Position numbers and translations under genes: made by a program. A stretch of 64,000 bases of DNA, from IMG/VR virus record IMGVR_UViG_3300017917_004093, positions 1 to 64,000 of that record; one strand, given 5' to 3'. Below are positions 817 through 61,665 of this stretch, one piece after another; the stretch's first letter is position 1, and every line of letters begins with the position of its first letter. The stretch is from a virus. The notes under the pieces were generated by a model that saw only the letters and a list, made by a program, of their open reading frames with translations, was not told where the DNA came from and did not search any database.

Positions 817-1317
817 TTACCAGGCCTTGTTATAGTCCACAATCTCACAGTTGCGACTGATGTCTTTTACAAAGTAAATGCACTGTGGCTTTTTTCCGTC
901 TGTGACGGGCACACACAGCATCTGTCCATTTTTAAGTTTAGGTGCATACCATGTGACTTCTTGATACACATCCACAATTTCAATGGGCGGGAAACTGGGT
1001 CTAAAACTGCTGAGAGGGTTGAACTCAAACACTTTAAAACCTCGATCATTGATGGATGTAAGTGGCAACATTTCTAGATCGCCCAGATCGGGTTCTCCGA
1101 TCAACACTTGCCAGTCCATGGGCATTTTGATTCGATGTTGCCCCACCTGCAATACCAGCGCCGGGGCAGTAAAGCTTTCAAGAAAAATCAAGGGAATGTA
1201 TTGATAGTCTGGATCCGCAGGCGTGGAGTTGTCCAGTATGGCAAAACGCATGTCGTCGATTTCTTCGGGCAAGTGATCTAGGTCAAAGCTTTCATTGTCT
1301 AAAGTTAAAATTCTCAT
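817..1317 (-). CDS. Conserved hypothetical protein with its own leaderless promoter
   Basis: A 166-aa protein of unknown function. It starts MRILTLDNESFDLDHLPEEI and includes a YIPLIFLESF segment, a proline-rich middle and a C-terminal LKNGQMLCVPVTDGKKPQ stretch. No catalytic motif is visible. A sigma70-type promoter lies exactly 6 bp upstream of the ATG, with no Shine-Dalgarno sequence, so the mRNA is predicted to be leaderless. The 18-bp gap to the preceding gene is filled by the -10 box and part of the spacer. It is the first of a run of five coupled small genes. Confidence 0.65.
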   Translation of the reverse strand: MRILTLDNESFDLDHLPEEIDDMRFAILDNSTPADPDYQYIPLIFLESFTAPALVLQVGQHRIKMPMDWQVLIGEPDLGDLEMLPLTSINDRGFKVFEFNPLSSFRPSFPPIEIVDVYQEVTWYAPKLKNGQMLCVPVTDGKKPQCIYFVKDISRNCEIVDYNKAW

Positions 1318-1323
1318 ATTGTA

Positions 1324-1352
1324 ATTTTACTGTAGTTACATCAAGAAGTCAA
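1324..1352 (-). promoter_or_regulatory. sigma70-type promoter, leaderless geometry
   Basis: Minus strand: -35 TTGACT (1352-1347), 17-bp spacer, -10 TAAAAT (1329-1324), then six bases and the ATG at 1317. The expected start site is the A of the ATG. The promoter overlaps the end of the upstream gene. Confidence 0.65.
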
Positions 1353-1944: not shown

Positions 1945-3410
1945 TTGATGGTCATCCAGTCTAGCTTTTCTTGTGTGAATGGATAGTTGGCTTCTCGATA
2001 ATAAGCTTTGCGTTTGGTCAGATGTCGCTTGGCAAACTTGCAGGTAGAAGTAACATCCCAAATTTGAACATGGTCTTTGTCTTCGGCCTTGCGAATTCCG
2101 CGACCGATACTTTGTATTACTCTAACAAAACTTTTTCCAGGTTCTACCAAAACCAAGTTAAAGATTCTGGGTATGTTGATGCCCACAGCAGCCACACCGT
2201 AAGTGGCCACGATGATTTTGTCTGTGGCTTCTGCAATTGAATCATATTCTTCCTGCCTGTCTTTGGCCTTGGTTGACCCACTTACAAACACAGCACCATC
2301 GCCTAGTCGTTGTATCAATGCTTGTCCTGCTGAAATACGATCTACCAGTACCAAGGTATTGCCAGTTTCGTTGACTTGGCGTACCAGTTTTGCAATTGTG
2401 TCCAGACGCCCCGACTCTTCCAACAAGTATTTGAGCTCGCTTTGATAGTCCTTGTATTCAACATGGTCTTGCAATTGCACAATGTTCACATGGCAATTGG
2501 CCAGCACACCCTGTTGTTGCAGCTCGTTGGCCGACAGTTTGCCGATAACAGGACCCAAGCTTACCAACAATGCTTGGCTTTCGAACTTTTCTTTGGGTAT
2601 AGTACCTGTGAGTCCCCAGCGGATCGGAATCTTGGCCATAACTCCGGTCAGCAAGGTTTTCAGTGCATCAGCTTTGGCCATGTGCACTTCGTCTACCATG
2701 ACGCACACCACATCTTCAATAAAGTCTTGTATGGTAATGTCGGCTGTGCCCGACTTGGTGTTTTTCAACAGCACGTTCAAGCTTTGCCAGGTGCAAATAG
2801 TGTGCTGGTGCCCGTGTTCTTTGCGGTCGCCAAAATACACACCCACATCCAAGCCCACATTGCGATAGTCTTTTTCTGTTTGGGTAACCAAACTTTTGTT
2901 GGGCACAATCACAATTGATCGACCATGAGCTTGCACTGCCGCACTCAGGGTAGCAGTCATAATGGTTTTACCTGCACCTGTGGCCACTTCCTGAATGCAC
3001 TGCGGATTTTGCAAAAAGTTGTTGACAATTTCCACTTGATAATCGCGCAGCATGATGGATTCACCTTCAGCAGGGTGACCTTTGGGCCATGATCGGTGTG
3101 CCCAGCTGTGTTCTTCTACCTGTTGAAATTCAAATGAAGTAGAATAATCTCGTTGATCATCTATTTCAATGTCATAGTTCATACGCTCCAACAGCGGCAC
3201 AATTTCTGGCAGTAAATTTGTGTAGGTACTGCCGCCCAGTTGAAAATAGCTTACTTTGCCATCCCAACGCCCCAGTCTCACAGCGGGAAGATATCTTGCA
3301 TAAGGTACATCGTATTTGAATGCATTGACCAAGGCACGGCGTGCATCTAGATCAAGACCATCTAGCTTGATGTTGACTTCATCGCGAATTACTATAGTTG
3401 CTTGTTTCAT
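1941..3410 (-). CDS. uvsW: UvsW-like superfamily 2 DNA helicase
   Basis: A 489-aa helicase that in T4 reverses stalled forks, promotes branch migration and unwinds R-loops, helping the switch to recombination-dependent replication. Visible motifs are Walker A ATGAGKT (residues 143-149), DEVH (240-243), motif III GLTGT, and motif VI QSIGRGIRK (433-441). The N-terminal 110 residues match the UvsW DNA-binding extension (AVRLGRWDGKVSYF). The start at ATG 3410 overlaps the upstream stop as ATGA. Length agrees with T4 UvsW (about 500 aa). Confidence 0.93.
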   Translation of the reverse strand: MKQATIVIRDEVNIKLDGLDLDARRALVNAFKYDVPYARYLPAVRLGRWDGKVSYFQLGGSTYTNLLPEIVPLLERMNYDIEIDDQRDYSTSFEFQQVEEHSWAHRSWPKGHPAEGESIMLRDYQVEIVNNFLQNPQCIQEVATGAGKTIMTATLSAAVQAHGRSIVIVPNKSLVTQTEKDYRNVGLDVGVYFGDRKEHGHQHTICTWQSLNVLLKNTKSGTADITIQDFIEDVVCVMVDEVHMAKADALKTLLTGVMAKIPIRWGLTGTIPKEKFESQALLVSLGPVIGKLSANELQQQGVLANCHVNIVQLQDHVEYKDYQSELKYLLEESGRLDTIAKLVRQVNETGNTLVLVDRISAGQALIQRLGDGAVFVSGSTKAKDRQEEYDSIAEATDKIIVATYGVAAVGINIPRIFNLVLVEPGKSFVRVIQSIGRGIRKAEDKDHVQIWDVTSTCKFAKRHLTKRKAYYREANYPFTQEKLDWMTIK

Positions 3411-4264
3411 TGAAAAAATTTGACCTGCTGAACCCACTGTCGTTTGGTAATCTCAAACAATAACTTTTCCCGATCTCCGTTGAACTCCAAATCGGCCACT
3501 GGAAACCTCAGTGGTTGTGCCTTGATATTATACACACTTGTGATGCCATGTGCAACAAAAAATTCACGATGTTGGTCAATATAATGCTGTACAGTTCCAT
3601 ATACTTCGCTCAGATCTCTATCGTAAAACTGAACATTGAAGTCGGCACTGTAGTAACCAAATGGTTTAAAAGCATCATCACCGATGTATTGATCGTTGTC
3701 GTGTGCTAGATCTTCTGCTGTTTTACCAATTTCACAATAGTTAAGATACACAGTACCAAAAGAAATTTGAGAATCTCCATACATGCCCTGTAATTCAGGA
3801 GTCAGCTGATGAGTTTTAGGCATACCAAACCATGTGCAAACAAATCTAGGCCTCGAACCTGCTGCTACACTTTCACATCTGTGCACAGCTAAATTTAATT
3901 CTGCCAAGGCCTGTTTAACACTTTGTGGTGCCCGTTGCCAATAATCACTGTTTTGCTGATCCAACAAACCGTGATAGCGTTCAAAAATGTTGTGCAAGTA
4001 GTTCAAACAGTCTTGTGTATAATCAAATGGTCTTTCTATGATAGGTTCCCAAGCATTAATGGTCGAAATGCACTGTTGAATATCAGACACTGCACGTTCA
4101 CGTTGAGTTATCAAAGAACCAAATCCGTAGAATCTGTTGGGGTGATCCAATGGCCAAGTCAAACGTTCATGCATGCGTTGAGACCATAGTTCGGCCATGG
4201 GTGTGTTTCTTACACGAAAATTCAGTGTGATTGGGTCCTGTTGGCCCAGGGTAATCTCTAGCAT
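3407..4264 (-). CDS. Conserved hypothetical, paralogue of the protein at 15919
   Basis: A 285-aa protein with no recognised domain. It shares a diagnostic order of segments with the 271-aa protein between uvsX and gp32: TQDCLNYLHNIFER, then KQALAELNLAVHRCES, then a C-terminal aromatic half with YLNYCEIGK. Both neighbour recombination genes. A sigma70-type promoter ends 6 bp before the ATG at 4264 and no Shine-Dalgarno sequence is present, so a leaderless mRNA is predicted. UvsW follows with an ATGA overlap, suggesting co-expression. Confidence 0.7.
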   Translation of the reverse strand: MLEITLGQQDPITLNFRVRNTPMAELWSQRMHERLTWPLDHPNRFYGFGSLITQRERAVSDIQQCISTINAWEPIIERPFDYTQDCLNYLHNIFERYHGLLDQQNSDYWQRAPQSVKQALAELNLAVHRCESVAAGSRPRFVCTWFGMPKTHQLTPELQGMYGDSQISFGTVYLNYCEIGKTAEDLAHDNDQYIGDDAFKPFGYYSADFNVQFYDRDLSEVYGTVQHYIDQHREFFVAHGITSVYNIKAQPLRFPVADLEFNGDREKLLFEITKRQWVQQVKFFQ

Positions 4265-4270
4265 GATAGC

Positions 4271-4299
4271 AATATATACTTACCGTTGTATAAAGTCAA
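4271..4299 (-). promoter_or_regulatory. sigma70-type promoter, leaderless geometry
   Basis: Minus strand: -35 TTGACT (4299-4294), 17-bp spacer, -10 TATATT (4276-4271), six bases, then ATG at 4264. It sits just after the terminator at 4304-4323, so it starts a new transcription unit containing the 285-aa gene and uvsW. Confidence 0.7.
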
Positions 4300-4303
4300 A
4301 AAA

Positions 4304-4323
4304 ACAGGCACCGAAGTGCCTGT
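4304..4323 (-). terminator. Intrinsic terminator with UUCG loop
   Basis: Perfect 8-bp stem ACAGGCAC/GTGCCTGT closed by a TTCG tetraloop on the minus strand and followed by seven T residues. It ends the unit made by the P-loop ATPase and the three small genes downstream of it. Confidence 0.88.
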
Positions 4324-4972: not shown

Positions 4973-5998
4973 TTAGGCTGCAGACTTCATGCAAGTGGTT
5001 TCTGCCAGACGCTTCCAGTTAGTAACACTGAGCTTGCGCAGATCTGCAATCTTCAGCGCCATGCGCAGACTCATTTCACGCAGGCGATTCTGATTGGTGT
5101 TCATGAAGTCAATGATTTCGTCTTGCACTTCGGGCGCAAAGTCGTAGTCTGCAAACAGCACGCCGTCTTTGGCAATCTGCTTGATACGCAGAATCTTGTC
5201 ACGCATGGTGTCTAGCGTAAGGTCAAGATAGTGACAACGGCTCTGCAGAGCGTCAAGGTGATCGCGCAGCTTCTGCGACTTCATCTTGTCGAACTTCAAG
5301 TTGGTAATGAAGATCACTGAGCCTTTGAACTCGAAGCTGTCGGGAATGCCTTCTTGGCGCAAAATGCGGCTGTCAGCAAGCCAGGAAATCTTGCGCTTCT
5401 TGCCCGAGTCCAGTGCACCCTTCAGCAGGTTCAGTGCCACATCGTCCAACAGAATTGAATCGCAGTCGTCAAACACAACCACGCAGTTGGCGTCAGAGTA
5501 TTTGTACAGAGTTTGATACAGGCCAATGGGAGTGGCCGAACCTTTGACAACTTCTGCACGAAGTCGCTTGCCAGCAATCTTGTCAAACATGCAGGCTTTG
5601 TCAATTTCTTGCTCAACGCCGTAGCTCTTGCCCACACCAGGGGGTCCCGACACAATCATGGCACGAATGTCGCCACTCACACAGGCCTTGCTCATCTCAG
5701 TGAGAATGTCGAATCGTTCACGAATACGGTCCATGGCCTGTTCTTCAGTTTCAGCAACAGGGGCGGTGCGCTCTAGTTTGACTACGTTATCTTGATGCAT
5801 GGCAGTAGTATACTCGATGTCAGAAATGCTGTCAACTCGCACTCGAATGGTAGGAGGACAATTGGGGAACACACCGTTGTTGGCAACGGTAACATAGTTA
5901 CCACGAGCACCAGACTGAAAGCCTGACACCAAAGTAAACACTTGATCGGCAACAGGCTTGTTACGATACTCGCCTCGCAGCACACGAATTTGACTCAT
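4973..5998 (-). CDS. AAA-type P-loop ATPase
   Basis: A 341-aa protein with Walker A GPPGVGKS (residues 118-125), Walker B CVVVFDDCD (172-180), and a sensor-1-like VIFITNL. The N-terminal 100 residues carry no recognised fold, and the C-terminal region is helical and basic. I chose ATG 5998 because GGAG precedes it at good spacing; an upstream TTG in frame is less likely. It may act as a clamp-loader-like or remodelling ATPase, but it is not an obvious gp44. It has its own strong sigma70-type promoter with a 35-40 nt leader and heads an early-type unit. Confidence 0.75.
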   Translation of the reverse strand: MSQIRVLRGEYRNKPVADQVFTLVSGFQSGARGNYVTVANNGVFPNCPPTIRVRVDSISDIEYTTAMHQDNVVKLERTAPVAETEEQAMDRIRERFDILTEMSKACVSGDIRAMIVSGPPGVGKSYGVEQEIDKACMFDKIAGKRLRAEVVKGSATPIGLYQTLYKYSDANCVVVFDDCDSILLDDVALNLLKGALDSGKKRKISWLADSRILRQEGIPDSFEFKGSVIFITNLKFDKMKSQKLRDHLDALQSRCHYLDLTLDTMRDKILRIKQIAKDGVLFADYDFAPEVQDEIIDFMNTNQNRLREMSLRMALKIADLRKLSVTNWKRLAETTCMKSAA

Positions 5999-6043: not shown

Positions 6044-6072
6044 ATTGTAGCAAATCAGCGATAATTGGTCAA
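6044..6072 (-). promoter_or_regulatory. Strong sigma70-type promoter for the AAA ATPase
   Basis: Minus strand: -35 TTGACC (6072-6067), 17-bp spacer, -10 TACAAT (6049-6044) preceded by TGC. The -35 side shares TTGACCAATTA with the promoter at 41757. A leader of about 40 nt with a GGAG ribosome-binding site follows. Confidence 0.8.
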
Positions 6073-13389: not shown

Positions 13390-13397
13390 TATTTAGT
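13390..13397 (-). promoter_or_regulatory. T4-type late promoter abutting the start codon
   Basis: ACTAAATA on the minus strand, 5 bp before the ATG at 13384. With T4 late geometry the start would be the A of the ATG, giving a leaderless mRNA. Confidence 0.45.
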
Positions 13398-21552: not shown

Positions 21553-21560
21553 TATTTAGC
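21553..21560 (-). promoter_or_regulatory. T4-type late promoter abutting the start codon
   Basis: GCTAAATA (minus), 7 bp before the ATG at 21545; predicted leader 2 nt. It overlaps the gp17 stop codon. Confidence 0.4.
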
Positions 21561-23132: not shown

Positions 23133-23140
23133 TATTTACT
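23133..23140 (-). promoter_or_regulatory. Late promoter-like motif abutting gp17
   Basis: AGTAAATA (minus), 5 bp before the ATG at 23127. It overlaps the stop codon of the upstream gene; the predicted start coincides with the ATG. Confidence 0.35.
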
Positions 23141-32044: not shown

Positions 32045-32052
32045 TATTTATG
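32045..32052 (-). promoter_or_regulatory. Late promoter-like motif at gp16
   Basis: CATAAATA (minus), 4 bp before the ATG at 32040. T4 geometry would put the start one base inside the ATG, so either the start shifts by one or it does not serve gp16. Confidence 0.4.
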
Positions 32053-34843: not shown

Positions 34844-37800
34844 TTATGCATTTACGGCCACTGTGCTTACACTGCTTGCAATTTCGCCAGTGTTCTTGAT
34901 ACGCACAGGAATGTAAATAAATTCAACTGCCTTCACTGGTTCAATGGCAATATCAACATACAACTCATTGCGGTCGATACGGGCAGGTGTGTTGTTGGTT
35001 GTATCGCAGACCACAAGGTAATCGTAGATACCGCGCTTGTTGACCAAGTCAATCATGAGCGAATTTACCGCATTGCTGATTTCGTTGCGTGTGATCTGAT
35101 CGTTGGGTTCAAACAAGAATGTTTTGCTAATCTCTTGTAGTCGGGCGCGAATAAACGCAATCAAACGAGACACGTTGATTCGATCCAGTGCAGATGCAAT
35201 TGATGTCACTGTCTTGTTACCAAAGTTGGTAATACCCACTCCAGGCACAAATGTAATCGGGTTGATATCCAATTCGTACAGTGCATCACGCAAGCCTTGA
35301 TTAACTCCCAGTGTAATAAATTCGCCAGTTTGAGCATTGACATAACCAATTCTCAACGCATTGTCAATTACACCGCGACGAGTACCAGCTGGAGCCAACC
35401 AGGGGAACGCTACTTCGTCGTTGCGCAGAATTGTACGCAACATCATGTGACTAGGAGGCTGTACCACCAAGGCACCAGACAAATCTGTGGTCTGGCAGCT
35501 GGGATAGAACACGCCCAGATATGTGTCGCTGGTTGTTAGTCCATCAGCAGTTGGATAACCATTTCCACTGTTGTCTGTGGCCCAGGCCTGCACTTCGGCA
35601 GCATTTCCAGGCAGTCTCAATGGCGTATCGCCAATCACAAAAGCTGTGTTGTTGCGATCATTGTTGAGTTCCACCATGTTGGGAATCAACTCTGGGTACT
35701 GAGGACAAGCCATCAAATTAAACTGACGCTGTTCTTCTCTGATGTCTACGGAAGCATCAATACCGGCCTTAAGAGCTGCTACAACAATAGCACGTTGCGC
35801 CTGACGGCCCATGTAAGGACTTCCATCGTTCTTGTTGCCACTCTGTGTTACCCATGCATTGGTCACTGTGGGCAAAATTTCATCAGGGAAGCTTTGTGAA
35901 TTGAAGTAGTCAACTCTGAAGCTCTTGACATTGTAACCACTTCTACGTGTGTTAAACAACAGCATACCCTGAGGATACAGCGATGGAACTGGGTGGTCAA
36001 GGTCCACATAGTTGCTGGTCAGCAAACTCTCGATGGTAGGAATCGGATCAGTAATGGGATCTGTTGTGCCGTTGGGTGCCCAACGTGCATCCGCAAACAG
36101 TATACCATTTTCTGTGGTTTGATCAGAGTTTACAATTTGTACCCATTGATCAGTACCGTCAATGTTTTCCCAACGATACAGCAACGGATAATTTTCTAGG
36201 TCGCTGGTATCAATCCACAAATCTCCATACACCAACGGACTCTTGGCAGTGTTGGTTTGTGTTGTGGGAGGTGTGGTTGAGAAAATTGGGCCTGTGGCAT
36301 TGGTCAAGCTCAAATTATAACCACGAACATCGTTGGTTACATTTTGATATCCTTGCCAAATGCCATTGTTTTGAATCATAATATCAGCTTCGGTGGTGGT
36401 GCTGTAGAACCACAAACGACCGTCATCGGGATCTTGATTGGGTGCAGTTGAGCTGGCAGTATAGGTAAAGAACGGTGCTGTATCAAATGATGACAAGTTT
36501 ATCACACCTGAATCTCCCACTATGACCCCTTGGATGGTTCCGTTGAAACCAGCAGTGGTCACTGGTGTACCAATCACGTTGACCAAATTAATAAAACCGC
36601 CGGTGCTGTGAGTGAACACAATGGCTCCTGTGCTGCTGATGCTGGCTGACACATAAGGCACGTTAGCAGCAGACACAGCGGCAACAAAATCAGCTGCTGT
36701 AGTACCATTTATGGTTGCAGTTACAACGGGGCTTAGATCTGGTGTTCCAGGAGCTGTGGCTTGTATGGTAAATGTATTGCCAGACACAAAAGGACCTGGT
36801 GAGGTATCATCTCCGGTTATTACTGTTTGACCAGTTTGGAAAAATTGATAAATTTCAACGCCGCCTTGGATTGGAGTAGCAGATTCAGAGTTCCAGCGAG
36901 CCCAGGTTGTGCCAATGGGAATGTTGGCTCCGCCGCCCGAAGGATCTAGTCCGTAAATGGCCTCTCTAGCATATTCATACAGTGGCACACTTTGTTGTAC
37001 CCAAGCAAACAGTGTGGCTGTCCACTTTTTCAATACCAAGTTGGTGCCTAAATTAACACTGTTGGTTTTTTGCCATACACTGCCAGTTGGAGCAGGACTG
37101 GTGTCGGTGCTTCTCCAGCGAGGCTGACTATAGTTGGGGCCAGCAAACAGTTCGGGCGCATTGTATGTGCCGGCTGTGATGCCCAACGCGGTCAGCGGTG
37201 TACCTGTTCCGTTGGTTATTTCAACCAGCCCGCCGCCACCGGTGGATCCGTCAGCAGTGGCTGTACTGTCGGCATAAATTACCAACTTGCCATTGTCAAC
37301 GCCAGAGTATACACCAGTGATGCTGGCAGAGTTGATGTTGTCAGACAAATTCTTAACACTGGCAGTAACGCCGTTGTCGACTGCAACTGTGGTACCGTTG
37401 ATGATCACGGTATTGCCAACTGACAATGTGGGTGCAGTTGCTGTGCCCTGTATTGTGGGCCATGCGGTTTTCCAATCGTCACTGCCCAATAAAACCCAAG
37501 TGTTGTACAAAGCAATTAATACTGCACTAGAAGAATATGTTACAGTTGAGCTATAAACATCGGTAGTGGGGCCGCCGCGCTTGAAGTAAAATCTATTGTG
37601 AACCTCAGTGGCAGAAATTGCATAGTCAGAAATGCTGCCGATGCTTTGCAGTGGCACTGTGGTAGACGGTTGTAGATTGGTAGTGCTGGTAATTACAATG
37701 GGCACCTTGTTGGTAAAAGCGGCAGTGGTCTGATTCCACTGGAAAATACCCCAGGTGGTCTCGGCAGTGTCCAACCAATAGTCGCCGTCAGTGGGGTTGC

Positions 37801-38629: not shown

Positions 38630-39251
38630 CCAAAGCTTTGACTTGTTGATATAAGTCATCCAATGTGCCGTTGTTGTCTAAAACAGCATCAAACTTGGTG
38701 CCTACCCAACTGGTTTCGCTGGCATGTATGCCCATGCGTTCAAGTTTGACCTTGCTTACGCTCCAGCTGGTATTACCGTCGGGTCCGCGGTTAACGCTTT
38801 TGGCAGCTTCGTACCACTCAGGTTCGGGTCCGCGCACCACACGGATCACTAGGCCGCCTGCTTCTTTGATTGCAGCGATTTCGTTGGGAAACCTGCAGTC
38901 GCTGATCACTACATCATCTTCACTGTTTCTTAATTTGTTTTCCAGGCTGGCAATCCAAATGTTGTCATGAAATCCGCGACGACAAACTTCTGTGCCCCAG
39001 TACTGTAAAACCCAACGAGGAGTAATATCCATGCCCAGTCGTTTGCTCCACCACTCGTCGCGCTGCTCACGCCATTCGCGAGCTTGTTTTGTGCGCCCTT
39101 CCAACATAGTGCGGTCCCATCCAAAAACACAAGACACAGCGTCTTTGAGTGTGTTAGCAAAGCTTTCCCTGCGAAAATGATGCAGATTTACTAGATAATC
39201 TGCAATGGTGTCCTTGCCTGACCCAATGAAACCGCAAATTCCAATGATCAT
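38592..39251 (-). CDS. 1: Deoxynucleoside monophosphate kinase (gp1-like)
   Basis: A 219-aa kinase. The P-loop GFIGSGKDT (residues 7-15) and the LVNLHHFRRESFANTLKDAV start resemble T4 gp1, which phosphorylates dGMP, dTMP and 5-hydroxymethyl-dCMP. Later VVISDCRFPNEIAAIKEAGG and GLVIRVVRGP also fit the family, and VLDNNGTLDDLYQQVKAL ends the domain. It supplies dNTP precursors. The start overlaps the exonuclease stop as ATGA. Confidence 0.88.
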   Translation of the reverse strand: MIIGICGFIGSGKDTIADYLVNLHHFRRESFANTLKDAVSCVFGWDRTMLEGRTKQAREWREQRDEWWSKRLGMDITPRWVLQYWGTEVCRRGFHDNIWIASLENKLRNSEDDVVISDCRFPNEIAAIKEAGGLVIRVVRGPEPEWYEAAKSVNRGPDGNTSWSVSKVKLERMGIHASETSWVGTKFDAVLDNNGTLDDLYQQVKALVTNPAQDRPAAS

Positions 39252-39772
39252 CGCATTTCCTTTATTTTAAAATATTTCAATGTGTCTTGAACCATGACTA
39301 TTTGTCTACGACAGTCTTCCAAGGCATGATGACTGGCCGGTGGTGCTTCTACATCAGGCCACAAGCTCAGCAGGGTTCGACTGTCGCGTACTTTGTAATA
39401 CTGCCAGGGCAAGGGCTTTTTGTAGCTTTTGTAAGCATGCTCTAAAATGGTCATATCGTAGGTAGGGCCTTGTGCCCAGATACGATTGCTGTGCCAAATC
39501 AACCGGCCCAATTCATCCAGTGCTTGATCTAGCGGAATACGACCATCTTCAGCAAAGGCCTCATCTCGCACCACAGGGGGCTGTGTGGCCCACCATTCCA
39601 GTGTGTTTTGATCAATTTCACGATGTTCTTGGCTCTCTAGAGTTACACGAGCATAGTAACTTTTGTCCTGGTAATAACCATCGCCAAAAGGATCAAATCC
39701 CTGAGCAGCTATAGTCAAAATACAGGTTTCTGGTCCAGTGGCCAGGCCTTCTAAATCGAGCATTAAATCCAT
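39248..39772 (-). CDS. DexA-like DEDD 3'-5' exonuclease
   Basis: A 174-aa exonuclease of the DEDD superfamily. Exo I is MLDLEGL (D6, E8), exo II lies in AQGPTYDMTILEHAY, and exo III is HHALEDCRRQI (His, Asp). This matches the short Rv2179c/DexA-type exonucleases; T4 DexA is 227 aa. It probably degrades host or processed ssDNA or RNA. A sigma70-type promoter lies 6 bp before the ATG, predicting a leaderless mRNA, and dNMP kinase follows in the same unit. Confidence 0.85.
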   Translation of the reverse strand: MDLMLDLEGLATGPETCILTIAAQGFDPFGDGYYQDKSYYARVTLESQEHREIDQNTLEWWATQPPVVRDEAFAEDGRIPLDQALDELGRLIWHSNRIWAQGPTYDMTILEHAYKSYKKPLPWQYYKVRDSRTLLSLWPDVEAPPASHHALEDCRRQIVMVQDTLKYFKIKEMR

Positions 39773-39778
39773 TTTGCT

Positions 39779-39807
39779 AGTATAGCAAAAGTCAGGTTAA
39801 GTGTCAA
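39779..39807 (-). promoter_or_regulatory. Consensus sigma70 promoter, leaderless geometry
   Basis: Minus strand: -35 TTGACA (39807-39802), 17-bp spacer ending in TGC, -10 TATACT (39784-39779), then AGCAAA and the ATG at 39772. Predicted start on the A of the ATG. Confidence 0.8.
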
Positions 39808-40596: not shown

Positions 40597-41736
40597 TTAC
40601 CATACGCGAAGAATCACTAGGTTTTCGTTGCCCCGGGGATTCCAAGCAGTTTCTGTGGCCTTGATGTCTTTGAAGGCTTTGCGAGCTGCCGGCTTGCCTG
40701 CTGTGGTAATGGCTTTGAGCTGTTCAGCGGGCTTGCGAAGAGTCTTTTGCAGGGTTTCAGTGTTGCTGAATCCAATGATACCATTGTTTTTCACCGTGAA
40801 CACTTTGGCATACTCGTCGGCCACCAGGTGAATAAGCTTGCGTTTTTTGCTGTCGTACAGCCAAGCTTCGGTTTTGTCCACCAATTGTGCTGCCGGCAAG
40901 CTCTTGAGCTTGAGCTCGGCAAAGTCAGCACAAATTTTAAACTTGGCTGCTTTTTTCTCGGGACTAACAGGTTTGACCTTGCGAGGCTTGCGCTCGACCT
41001 TTTTGATCTGCACATATGAGCCGCAGTCTGTGAGCACTAGCTCACAGAATTTTACACAGTTTTTTAACTGTGTTTTGGTAAGATGTTCGTAGCCTTTTAC
41101 AAGATCTGCGTCTTTGCCTTCTACCACATCCTCAAACTCGATCAGCTTCTTGGCCCATACATCTTTGATATAGGACACCATCTGGGGTGCAATATTCATG
41201 CTGCGCATTAGACTCACAGGCTTGTAGTCTGCGTTAAGCTTGGCGCCGGCAGCAATGAACTCGTCAAACAGGCCTTCCAGTTCACCTGCACATTCGATTA
41301 CTTTTTCGCGCAGACGATCTTGAATATTGGGACGAGCCACAACTGTTTCTTGTTCCACAACCACAGGCTCCGGTGCAGCCGAGTCATTGAGCAGCAGCAG
41401 GTCTTTGATCAGGTTGTCTAGTTTGATTTGCTCGTGCTCGTCCAATTGCAAGCCCATGAGGCTCATGCGGCATAGCCAGCCTGTGGTCAGGCGAACTTGA
41501 CTGTCGCCGAGACCCCGAATCTTTTTGGCATCCTGCCGGCGATCGTGCACGTCAAGATAGTTACAAATAAATTCTTTGGCTTCTTTTTTGCCGTAGAAAT
41601 AGTTGTACCAATTGAATGCACGTGTCAGTGCAACAAAACGGCTGTGTTCGGGTTGCTGACTCCAGACGGGTTCATTGCCCACATACTTGGTGTCAGGACT
41701 TTTGGGGTTCAGCGGTTTAAAGCTCAGAGTTTTCAC
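40597..41736 (-). CDS. Conserved 379-aa hypothetical protein
   Basis: A 379-aa basic, helical protein without recognised motifs. It starts MKTLSFKPLNPKSPDTKYVG at GTG 41736, preceded by AAAGGAG. Sections include FNWYNYFYGKKEAKEFICNY, a central RPNIQDRLREKVIEC, a Lys-rich linker RKPRKVKPVSPEKKA and a C-terminal beta/alpha region with KLIHLVADEYAKVFTV. It has a perfect sigma70-type promoter and is probably early or middle. The charged linker hints at nucleic-acid or protein binding. Confidence 0.65.
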   Translation of the reverse strand: MKTLSFKPLNPKSPDTKYVGNEPVWSQQPEHSRFVALTRAFNWYNYFYGKKEAKEFICNYLDVHDRRQDAKKIRGLGDSQVRLTTGWLCRMSLMGLQLDEHEQIKLDNLIKDLLLLNDSAAPEPVVVEQETVVARPNIQDRLREKVIECAGELEGLFDEFIAAGAKLNADYKPVSLMRSMNIAPQMVSYIKDVWAKKLIEFEDVVEGKDADLVKGYEHLTKTQLKNCVKFCELVLTDCGSYVQIKKVERKPRKVKPVSPEKKAAKFKICADFAELKLKSLPAAQLVDKTEAWLYDSKKRKLIHLVADEYAKVFTVKNNGIIGFSNTETLQKTLRKPAEQLKAITTAGKPAARKAFKDIKATETAWNPRGNENLVILRVW

Positions 41737-41756: not shown

Positions 41757-41785
41757 ATTATAGCAGTTTGGGGCTAATTGGTCAA
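41757..41785 (-). promoter_or_regulatory. sigma70-type promoter
   Basis: Minus strand: -35 TTGACC (41785-41780), 17-bp spacer ending in TGC, -10 TATAAT (41762-41757). A 20-nt leader with AAGGAG precedes the GTG start at 41736. Confidence 0.85.
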
Positions 41786-42043
41786 GTTGCAAGAAAGTAA
41801 TACTAAAGTAAGATCTGTTTCGTTGCGAAACGTGATCCAAAATGGGCGACTGCTAAAACGAGCGCTTCGGGCGCCGTAATAGCTGTACCAGTTGTCTACA
41901 CTGCGCCAGCCAGACCCCAAGCGGGCGCGGCACACTGACTCAATTTCGATTACCTTCGCATCCCAACCATCAAACCGCAGAGCCACTGTGTGTCCATTTT
42001 TGCGGAACTGCTTGAATCTGCGGTTTAATTTCACTATCTTCAT
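41774..42043 (-). CDS. 89-aa basic hypothetical protein
   Basis: An 89-aa protein from ATG 42043 (MKIVKLNRRFKQFRKNGHTV). It is basic at the start and aromatic in the middle (SVDNWYSYYGARSARFSSRP). No recognised family; the composition is compatible with a small host-takeover protein that binds RNA or protein. A consensus promoter ends 6 bp before the ATG and no Shine-Dalgarno sequence exists, so a leaderless mRNA is predicted. Confidence 0.6.
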   Translation of the reverse strand: MKIVKLNRRFKQFRKNGHTVALRFDGWDAKVIEIESVCRARLGSGWRSVDNWYSYYGARSARFSSRPFWITFRNETDLTLVLLSCNLTN

Positions 42044-42049
42044 GCTCAA

Positions 42050-42078
42050 ATTATAGCACTTTTGACATTTTGGGTCAA
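42050..42078 (-). promoter_or_regulatory. sigma70 promoter, leaderless geometry
   Basis: Minus strand: -35 TTGACC (42078-42073), 17-bp spacer ending in TGC, -10 TATAAT (42055-42050), then TTGAGC and the ATG at 42043. The -35 overlaps the upstream stop codon. Confidence 0.82.
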
Positions 42079-42349: not shown

Positions 42350-42357
42350 TATAAATA
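42350..42357 (+). promoter_or_regulatory. T4-type late promoter (exact consensus) for gp14-gp15
   Basis: TATAAATA, six bases before the ATG at 42364; predicted start one base before the ATG. Confidence 0.7.
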
Positions 42358-61657: not shown

Positions 61658-61665
61658 TTTAAATA
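61658..61665 (+). promoter_or_regulatory. Late promoter-like motif
   Basis: TTTAAATA (7 of 8 positions), four bases before the ATG at 61670. Confidence 0.35.

Follow-up and report, generated by a model that had tools for sequence, protein, structure and literature searches.

What becomes of a gene whose promoter ends only six bases ahead of its start codon? The window, the 64,000-nucleotide stretch analysed here, comes from a virus record in IMG/VR that is 64,120 bases long and was originally predicted to hold four promoters with a 17-bp spacer, each followed by exactly six bases and an ATG and lacking a Shine-Dalgarno (SD) sequence. All four are present as claimed, on the minus strand, with a spacer of 17 and a gap of 6; their TTGACA-like and TATAAT-like hexamers, at a distance within the usual 16–18 bp, identify them as sigma70-type promoters, and inspection of the sequence found no SD at any of them. 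The promoter at 1324..1352 (-), TTGACT-17-TAAAAT-tacaat-ATG(1317), precedes a predicted leaderless gene of 166 aa (817..1317 (-); phrog_11279, no assigned function), and that at 4271..4299 (-), TTGACT-17-TATATT-gctatc-ATG(4264), a predicted leaderless gene of 285 aa (3407..4264 (-)) without a family match, which lies upstream of a uvsW-like helicase gene. The third, at 39779..39807 (-), TTGACA-17-TATACT-agcaaa-ATG(39772), would drive a 174-aa DexA-like 3'-5' exonuclease (39248..39772 (-); phrog_255, PF16473) that shares 22% identity with T4 DexA (E 9e-14), and the fourth, at 42050..42078 (-), TTGACC-17-TATAAT-ttgagc-ATG(42043), a basic protein of 89 aa, again without a family match (41774..42043 (-)). 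Beside this last gene stands an early promoter of the contrasting, SD-led kind (41757..41785 (-), TTGACC/17/TATAAT), with a 20 nt leader containing AAAGGAG before a GTG at 41736. The 285-aa gene has a further landmark upstream, a terminator-like hairpin (4298..4322 (-), CAGGCAC-TTCG-GTGCCTG plus a T run) whose T run enters the -35 of the gene's promoter; a hairpin-like GGTGCCTG-T run recurs before its orthologues and is similar in several relatives.

The original prediction held that such repeated geometry is unlikely by chance, and the window agrees. When sites with at most two mismatches, a 17-bp spacer and a gap of 6 were scored, five were observed against a mean of 0.18 per window in 300 dinucleotide shuffles (maximum 2), and gaps adjacent to 6 gave only 0 or 1 site each in the same scan. 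The pattern TTGACN-N17-TANNNT-N6-ATG has 6 matches on the minus strand, 0 on the plus strand and 1 in a reversed control, and for minus-strand promoters with at most two mismatches before an ATG-started ORF, every gap below 15 nt is exactly 6. A sixth site, at 36000, is weak, lies within the tail-sheath gene and probably arose by chance.

Is the spacing conserved? From IMG/VR we fetched 80 loci with a dexA relative and 80 with a relative of the window's AAA ATPase gene. In orthologue upstreams collapsed at 80% identity, a step after which related contigs are still not independent, a -10 lies 5–7 nt before the ATG in 41 of 45 dexA genes, 6–8 nt in 33 of 37 orthologues of the 166-aa gene, 5–6 nt in 13 of 16 of the 285-aa gene and 5–6 nt in all 11 of the 89-aa gene. 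No SD was found upstream of the start in any of these 109 nonredundant orthologues (0/37 for the 166-aa gene). The distance is thus kept at 5–8 nt across four gene families: ‘exactly six’ holds within the window and widens to this range in relatives. Across dexA upstreams the conspicuous elements are just the -35, the -10, often in extended form (TGnTATAAT), and the ATG, in flanking sequence that is otherwise highly divergent; that the gap is kept while the letters of the spacer and of the six gap bases drift is the pattern expected of selection on promoter-to-ATG distance. Two dexA relatives instead begin with GTG, preceded by an SD-like GGGG. Protein conservation starts at the ATG or a few residues in, and codon 4 of dexA is another ATG, likewise without an SD.

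The same arrangement emerges when early promoters, defined by TTGAC and a near-consensus -10, are surveyed across seven contigs of 64–349 kb (the window, G001–G005 and G007) and ATG-started ORFs are counted by gap. The -10-to-ATG distance is bimodal, nearly empty between the modes. Gaps of 5, 6, 7 and 8 account for 8, 38, 5 and 2 genes, 53 in all and none with an SD, and fewer than 10 genes in total fall at gaps 9–17. SD-led early genes follow at gaps 18–36, with a peak of 33 genes at gap 30, 32 of which have an SD. In the same genomes, SD-led early promoters are thus about twice as numerous as leaderless ones (109 vs 53). A pyrimidine immediately precedes the ATG in 49 of the 53 leaderless genes and in 57 of the 109 SD-led ones (Fisher P 1.5e-7), which would place the A of the leaderless ATG at the expected start of RNA polymerase. 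SD-led promoters have the equivalent bases without the start codon: 90/109 have C or T as the sixth base after the -10, and 65/109 have A as the seventh. The same pyrimidine-A step at positions 6–7 in both classes suggests that the leaderless ATG occupies the start step, and since 30 SD-led leaders carry ATA at the position where leaderless genes have ATG, one substitution could produce the leaderless state. Start-codon usage points the same way. Leaderless initiation depends on AUG (PMC9031893), and the early leaderless gaps, in keeping with this, hold 53 ATG, 5 TTG and 0 GTG starts; GTG and TTG form no peak at gap 6.

Conservation of the geometry extends to 15 or more gene families. These include DexA and a UvdE endonuclease, a primase-like (phrog_47) and a C2H2-like protein (phrog_11058), and a gp47-like phosphoesterase, whose name is based on a sequence motif only; some relatives of uvsW and of the clamp loader show it as well. 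Where a function is known, leaderless early genes mostly encode replication and repair enzymes, and leaderless early genes overall are somewhat longer than SD-led ones (median 166 aa vs 94 aa, P 0.026). Some relatives may combine both arrangements at one gene. In-frame ATGs with the six-base gap lie about 24 nt before an SD-led ATG in G001 (48781(-), 1571(-), 3363(-)) and G002 (1824(+), 233587(+)), as in MFSKKEPAM... (ATG ttc agc AAAAAGGAG cca gca ATG); these are possibly dual starts, or may be incidental. Another pair, the ~150-aa orthologues at G004 2722 (+) and G002 225238 (+), has one leaderless and one SD-led member, an apparent switch between junction types.

Are these junctions a property of early genes, as the original prediction had it? 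A survey of every called start in the window revealed TAAATA, the core sequence of T4 late promoters, close to several ATGs, and we then counted it before ATG-started ORFs of 80+ aa in the same seven contigs. At gaps of 4–7 it precedes 116 genes, none with an SD; a trough follows at gaps 8–15, and 103 SD-led genes then lie at 16–26, whereas control hexamers give flat distributions without a peak at 4–7. By start codon, the late leaderless gaps hold 116 ATG, 6 GTG and 5 TTG. Boxes of the T4 late type (TATAAATA/TAAATA) occur upstream of virion genes: in the window, TATAAATA at 42350..42357 (+) ends 6 nt before ATG 42364 of a 432-aa virion structural protein (phrog_11591), a gene with TAAATA at gap 4–8 in 30/34 orthologues. 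Further TAAATA boxes lie 5 nt before ATG 23127 of the 523-aa terminase large subunit (23133..23138 (-), kept in 3/6 orthologues), 7 nt before ATG 21545 of a 480-aa virion structural protein (21553..21558 (-), 5/5), 5 nt before ATG 13384 of a 254-aa nucleotidyltransferase-like protein (13390..13395 (-), 16/18), 4 nt before ATG 32040 of a 164-aa protein of phrog_16202 (32045..32050 (-), 16/16 at gap 4–7) and 4 nt before ATG 61670 of a 383-aa TPR protein (61660..61665 (+), 5/5). TAAATA would presumably be used by the phage's own late sigma. The idea of a leaderless early-gene class was therefore not borne out: with 116 late against 53 early genes showing the same split, leaderless expression appears to be lineage-wide and not specific to takeover.

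The fifth window site, equal in quality to the other four and absent from the original prediction, lies inside a gene. Its promoter (5807..5835 (-), TTGACA/17/TATACT) ends 6 nt before ATG 5800, within the 341-aa AAA ATPase gene (4973..5998 (-)), whose full-length product starts at ATG 5998 behind the SD TGGAG; an SD-led early promoter (6044..6072 (-), TTGACC/17/TACAAT) lies 45 nt before ATG 5998. The C-terminal part, 275 aa from ATG 5800, matches phrog_1250. The internal promoter is retained in one subclade, and the Thr codon closing its -10 is ACT in 32/32; synonymous constraint across the whole element is not strong, only that codon being invariant. A short leaderless isoform is possible. 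In Shigella, a leaderless internal transcript of virF yields a shorter protein (PMC5101355), and the AAA site could produce a short isoform in a similar way; unlike in virF, the isoform is predicted from sequence only, and the site overlaps conserved coding sequence.

How widespread is this layout? In IMG/VR, exact TTGACA-N17-TATAAT-N6-ATG opened an ORF of 60+ aa in 84/135 cases among the matches listed, many of them T4-type replication proteins, against 18/118 among the matches listed for an N10 control, which indicates that the habit is wider than the lineage's own clade. The lineage shares with T4 strong host-type early promoters, TATAAATA late boxes and homologous DexA, UvsW and terminase. 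However, T4 early promoters mostly have SD leaders of ~20–30 nt, T4 late boxes form no group at 4–7 nt, and T4 dexA, unlike the window's dexA-like gene, is preceded by an SD. By their AAA, 166-aa and clamp-loader proteins, the closest cultured relatives are PA5oct-like jumbo phages (Arenbergviridae), Atu_ph07, Phosso, 121Q, CBB and GAP32. The N6 class was not found in five cultured jumbo cousins, and in cultured relatives the 166-aa gene, unlike that of the window, is either part of an operon or preceded by an SD; its PA5oct copy has a near-consensus promoter and then a leader containing AAAGGTG. For this gene, the leaderless state thus seems to be a derived one in the uncultured lineage. The lone candidate in PA5oct, a cultured Pseudomonas phage, is the annotated exonuclease EST35_0240 (MK797984 158206-158244), which starts 7 nt after the TATAAT of a consensus promoter; we checked it as a DexA orthologue and ruled this out.

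Taken together, these data very probably describe a T4-related, uncultured jumbo phage lineage that uses two junction types between promoter and gene, with leaderless mRNAs in both its early and its late genes. In the SD-led junction, a leader with a Shine-Dalgarno sequence would separate the two. In the leaderless junction, RNA polymerase would start on, or 1–2 nt from, the A of the ATG, giving an mRNA that begins 5'-AUG. That the promoters are set so that transcription should begin on this A, as originally proposed, is supported by the geometry, the lack of an SD and the conservation, and we regard the predicted leaderless mRNAs as well supported. Host-type sigma70 promoters would serve the leaderless genes of the early class (DexA exonuclease, primase, UvdE-type endonuclease, uvsW in some relatives and several unknowns) and the T4-type TAAATA box the late ones (terminase, virion proteins), so that initiation on the A, leaderless translation and the division into early and late would follow from the promoters and their positions; for the sigma70-type genes, early timing is read from promoter type only. 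Such messages would be translated by 70S ribosomes, or by 30S subunits with IF2. Translation would begin with the ribosome and initiator tRNA binding the 5'-terminal AUG, a mode of initiation that is established in E. coli for the cI message of lambda (PMC9031893). The most likely role is that of a compact junction, without special takeover purpose, which ties start-codon choice to start-site choice; it would be easily reached by mutation and retained chiefly for enzymes and structural genes. This account is at its weakest where it concerns purpose.

Could leaderless early transcripts instead let takeover genes evade a phage- or host-imposed block of SD-dependent initiation, as originally suggested? 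Leaderless early genes do exist and are conserved, and initiation differs between leaderless and SD-led mRNA (PMC9031893). But the late leaderless genes outnumber the early ones, those early ones with an assigned role are not obvious takeover genes, and the more numerous SD-led early promoters coexist with them; escape from such a block is thus unsupported, the sequence giving no sign of one, and we consider it very unlikely. Similarly unlikely is a broader version, in which the lineage biases the infected cell in favour of leaderless initiation, perhaps by changes to the ribosome or initiation factors or by a phage initiator-like tRNA such as the one with C1.A72 in relative G002, and in which the phage's leaderless messages, early and late alike, gain a selective advantage over the SD-led mRNAs of the host.

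The promoters might also be real while RNA polymerase starts upstream or downstream, so that the ATG does not form the 5' end and translation uses a short leader with another ribosome-binding signal or a downstream start codon. The codon-4 ATG of dexA and those N6 ATGs of relatives that precede an SD-led ATG would fit, and the leaderless starts are predicted from DNA. However, a -10 ending 5–8 nt before the ATG leaves no space for a leader, the trough at 9–17 nt indicates that short leaders are avoided, and the gap persists despite sequence drift, with pyrimidine-A at the junction and protein conservation from the ATG or a few residues on. For the class we find this reading very unlikely, though a downstream start codon could serve single genes, such as codon 4 in dexA. 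Least probable of all, and refuted at the level of the class, is a chance placement of AT-rich hexamers close to start codons. The TA..T motif is loose and single sites may be chance, as the one at 36000 probably is, but the shuffles, the control hexamers and the N10 control are all contrary to it, as are the orthologue conservation and the cultured cousins without a peak.

Leaderless mRNAs are rare in enterobacteria, and in phages they are known chiefly from single genes. In the lineage described here, the predicted leaderless share is about a third of recognisable early junctions and about half of late ones. Zheng et al. 2011 described TA-led genes, which have a -10-like TA signal ~10 bp before the start codon and no SD (PMC3160421). 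Our junctions resemble these and the lambda cI type in their TA signal ~10 bp upstream, the lack of an SD and the AUG start, but they extend across a T4-type jumbo phage lineage, not a single repressor or a host-genome statistic, and they involve both sigma70 and late-type promoters beside a separate SD-led class. Searches of the open-access literature turned up no description of such a class for T4-like or jumbo phages, nor of a leaderless layout for a whole phage lineage as predicted here, although the layout is known from a few phage genes. If true, the lineage would lend itself to studying the purpose of leaderless initiation in a natural setting, and would caution against gene callers that rely on SD motifs.

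Finally, we would like to add some observations on hosts and tRNAs. The AAA query had no match in GTDB genomes. In a second scan of these genomes, the 166-aa alignment matched five MAG contigs (L491–L495) assigned to Chitinophagaceae, Rickettsiales, Pelagibacter, Verrucomicrobia and Bacteroidetes; as five unrelated taxa, these are probably mis-binned phage contigs and uninformative about the host. Raised initiator tRNA has been reported to favour leaderless translation, and relative G002 carries one tRNA-Met with a C1.A72 mismatch, typical of initiator tRNA. We rejected the idea that the phages generally boost such translation with an initiator tRNA of their own, because the C1.A72 tRNA occurs in G002 only, G001 and G004 being without it. 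G002 also contains a permuted tmRNA and a tRNA array (L184:1128-1593 and L184:7029-7104). The tmRNA matches the betaproteobacterial family RF01850 (91.6 bits) and encodes the tag ANDSQFALAA, which suggests a betaproteobacterial host for G002.
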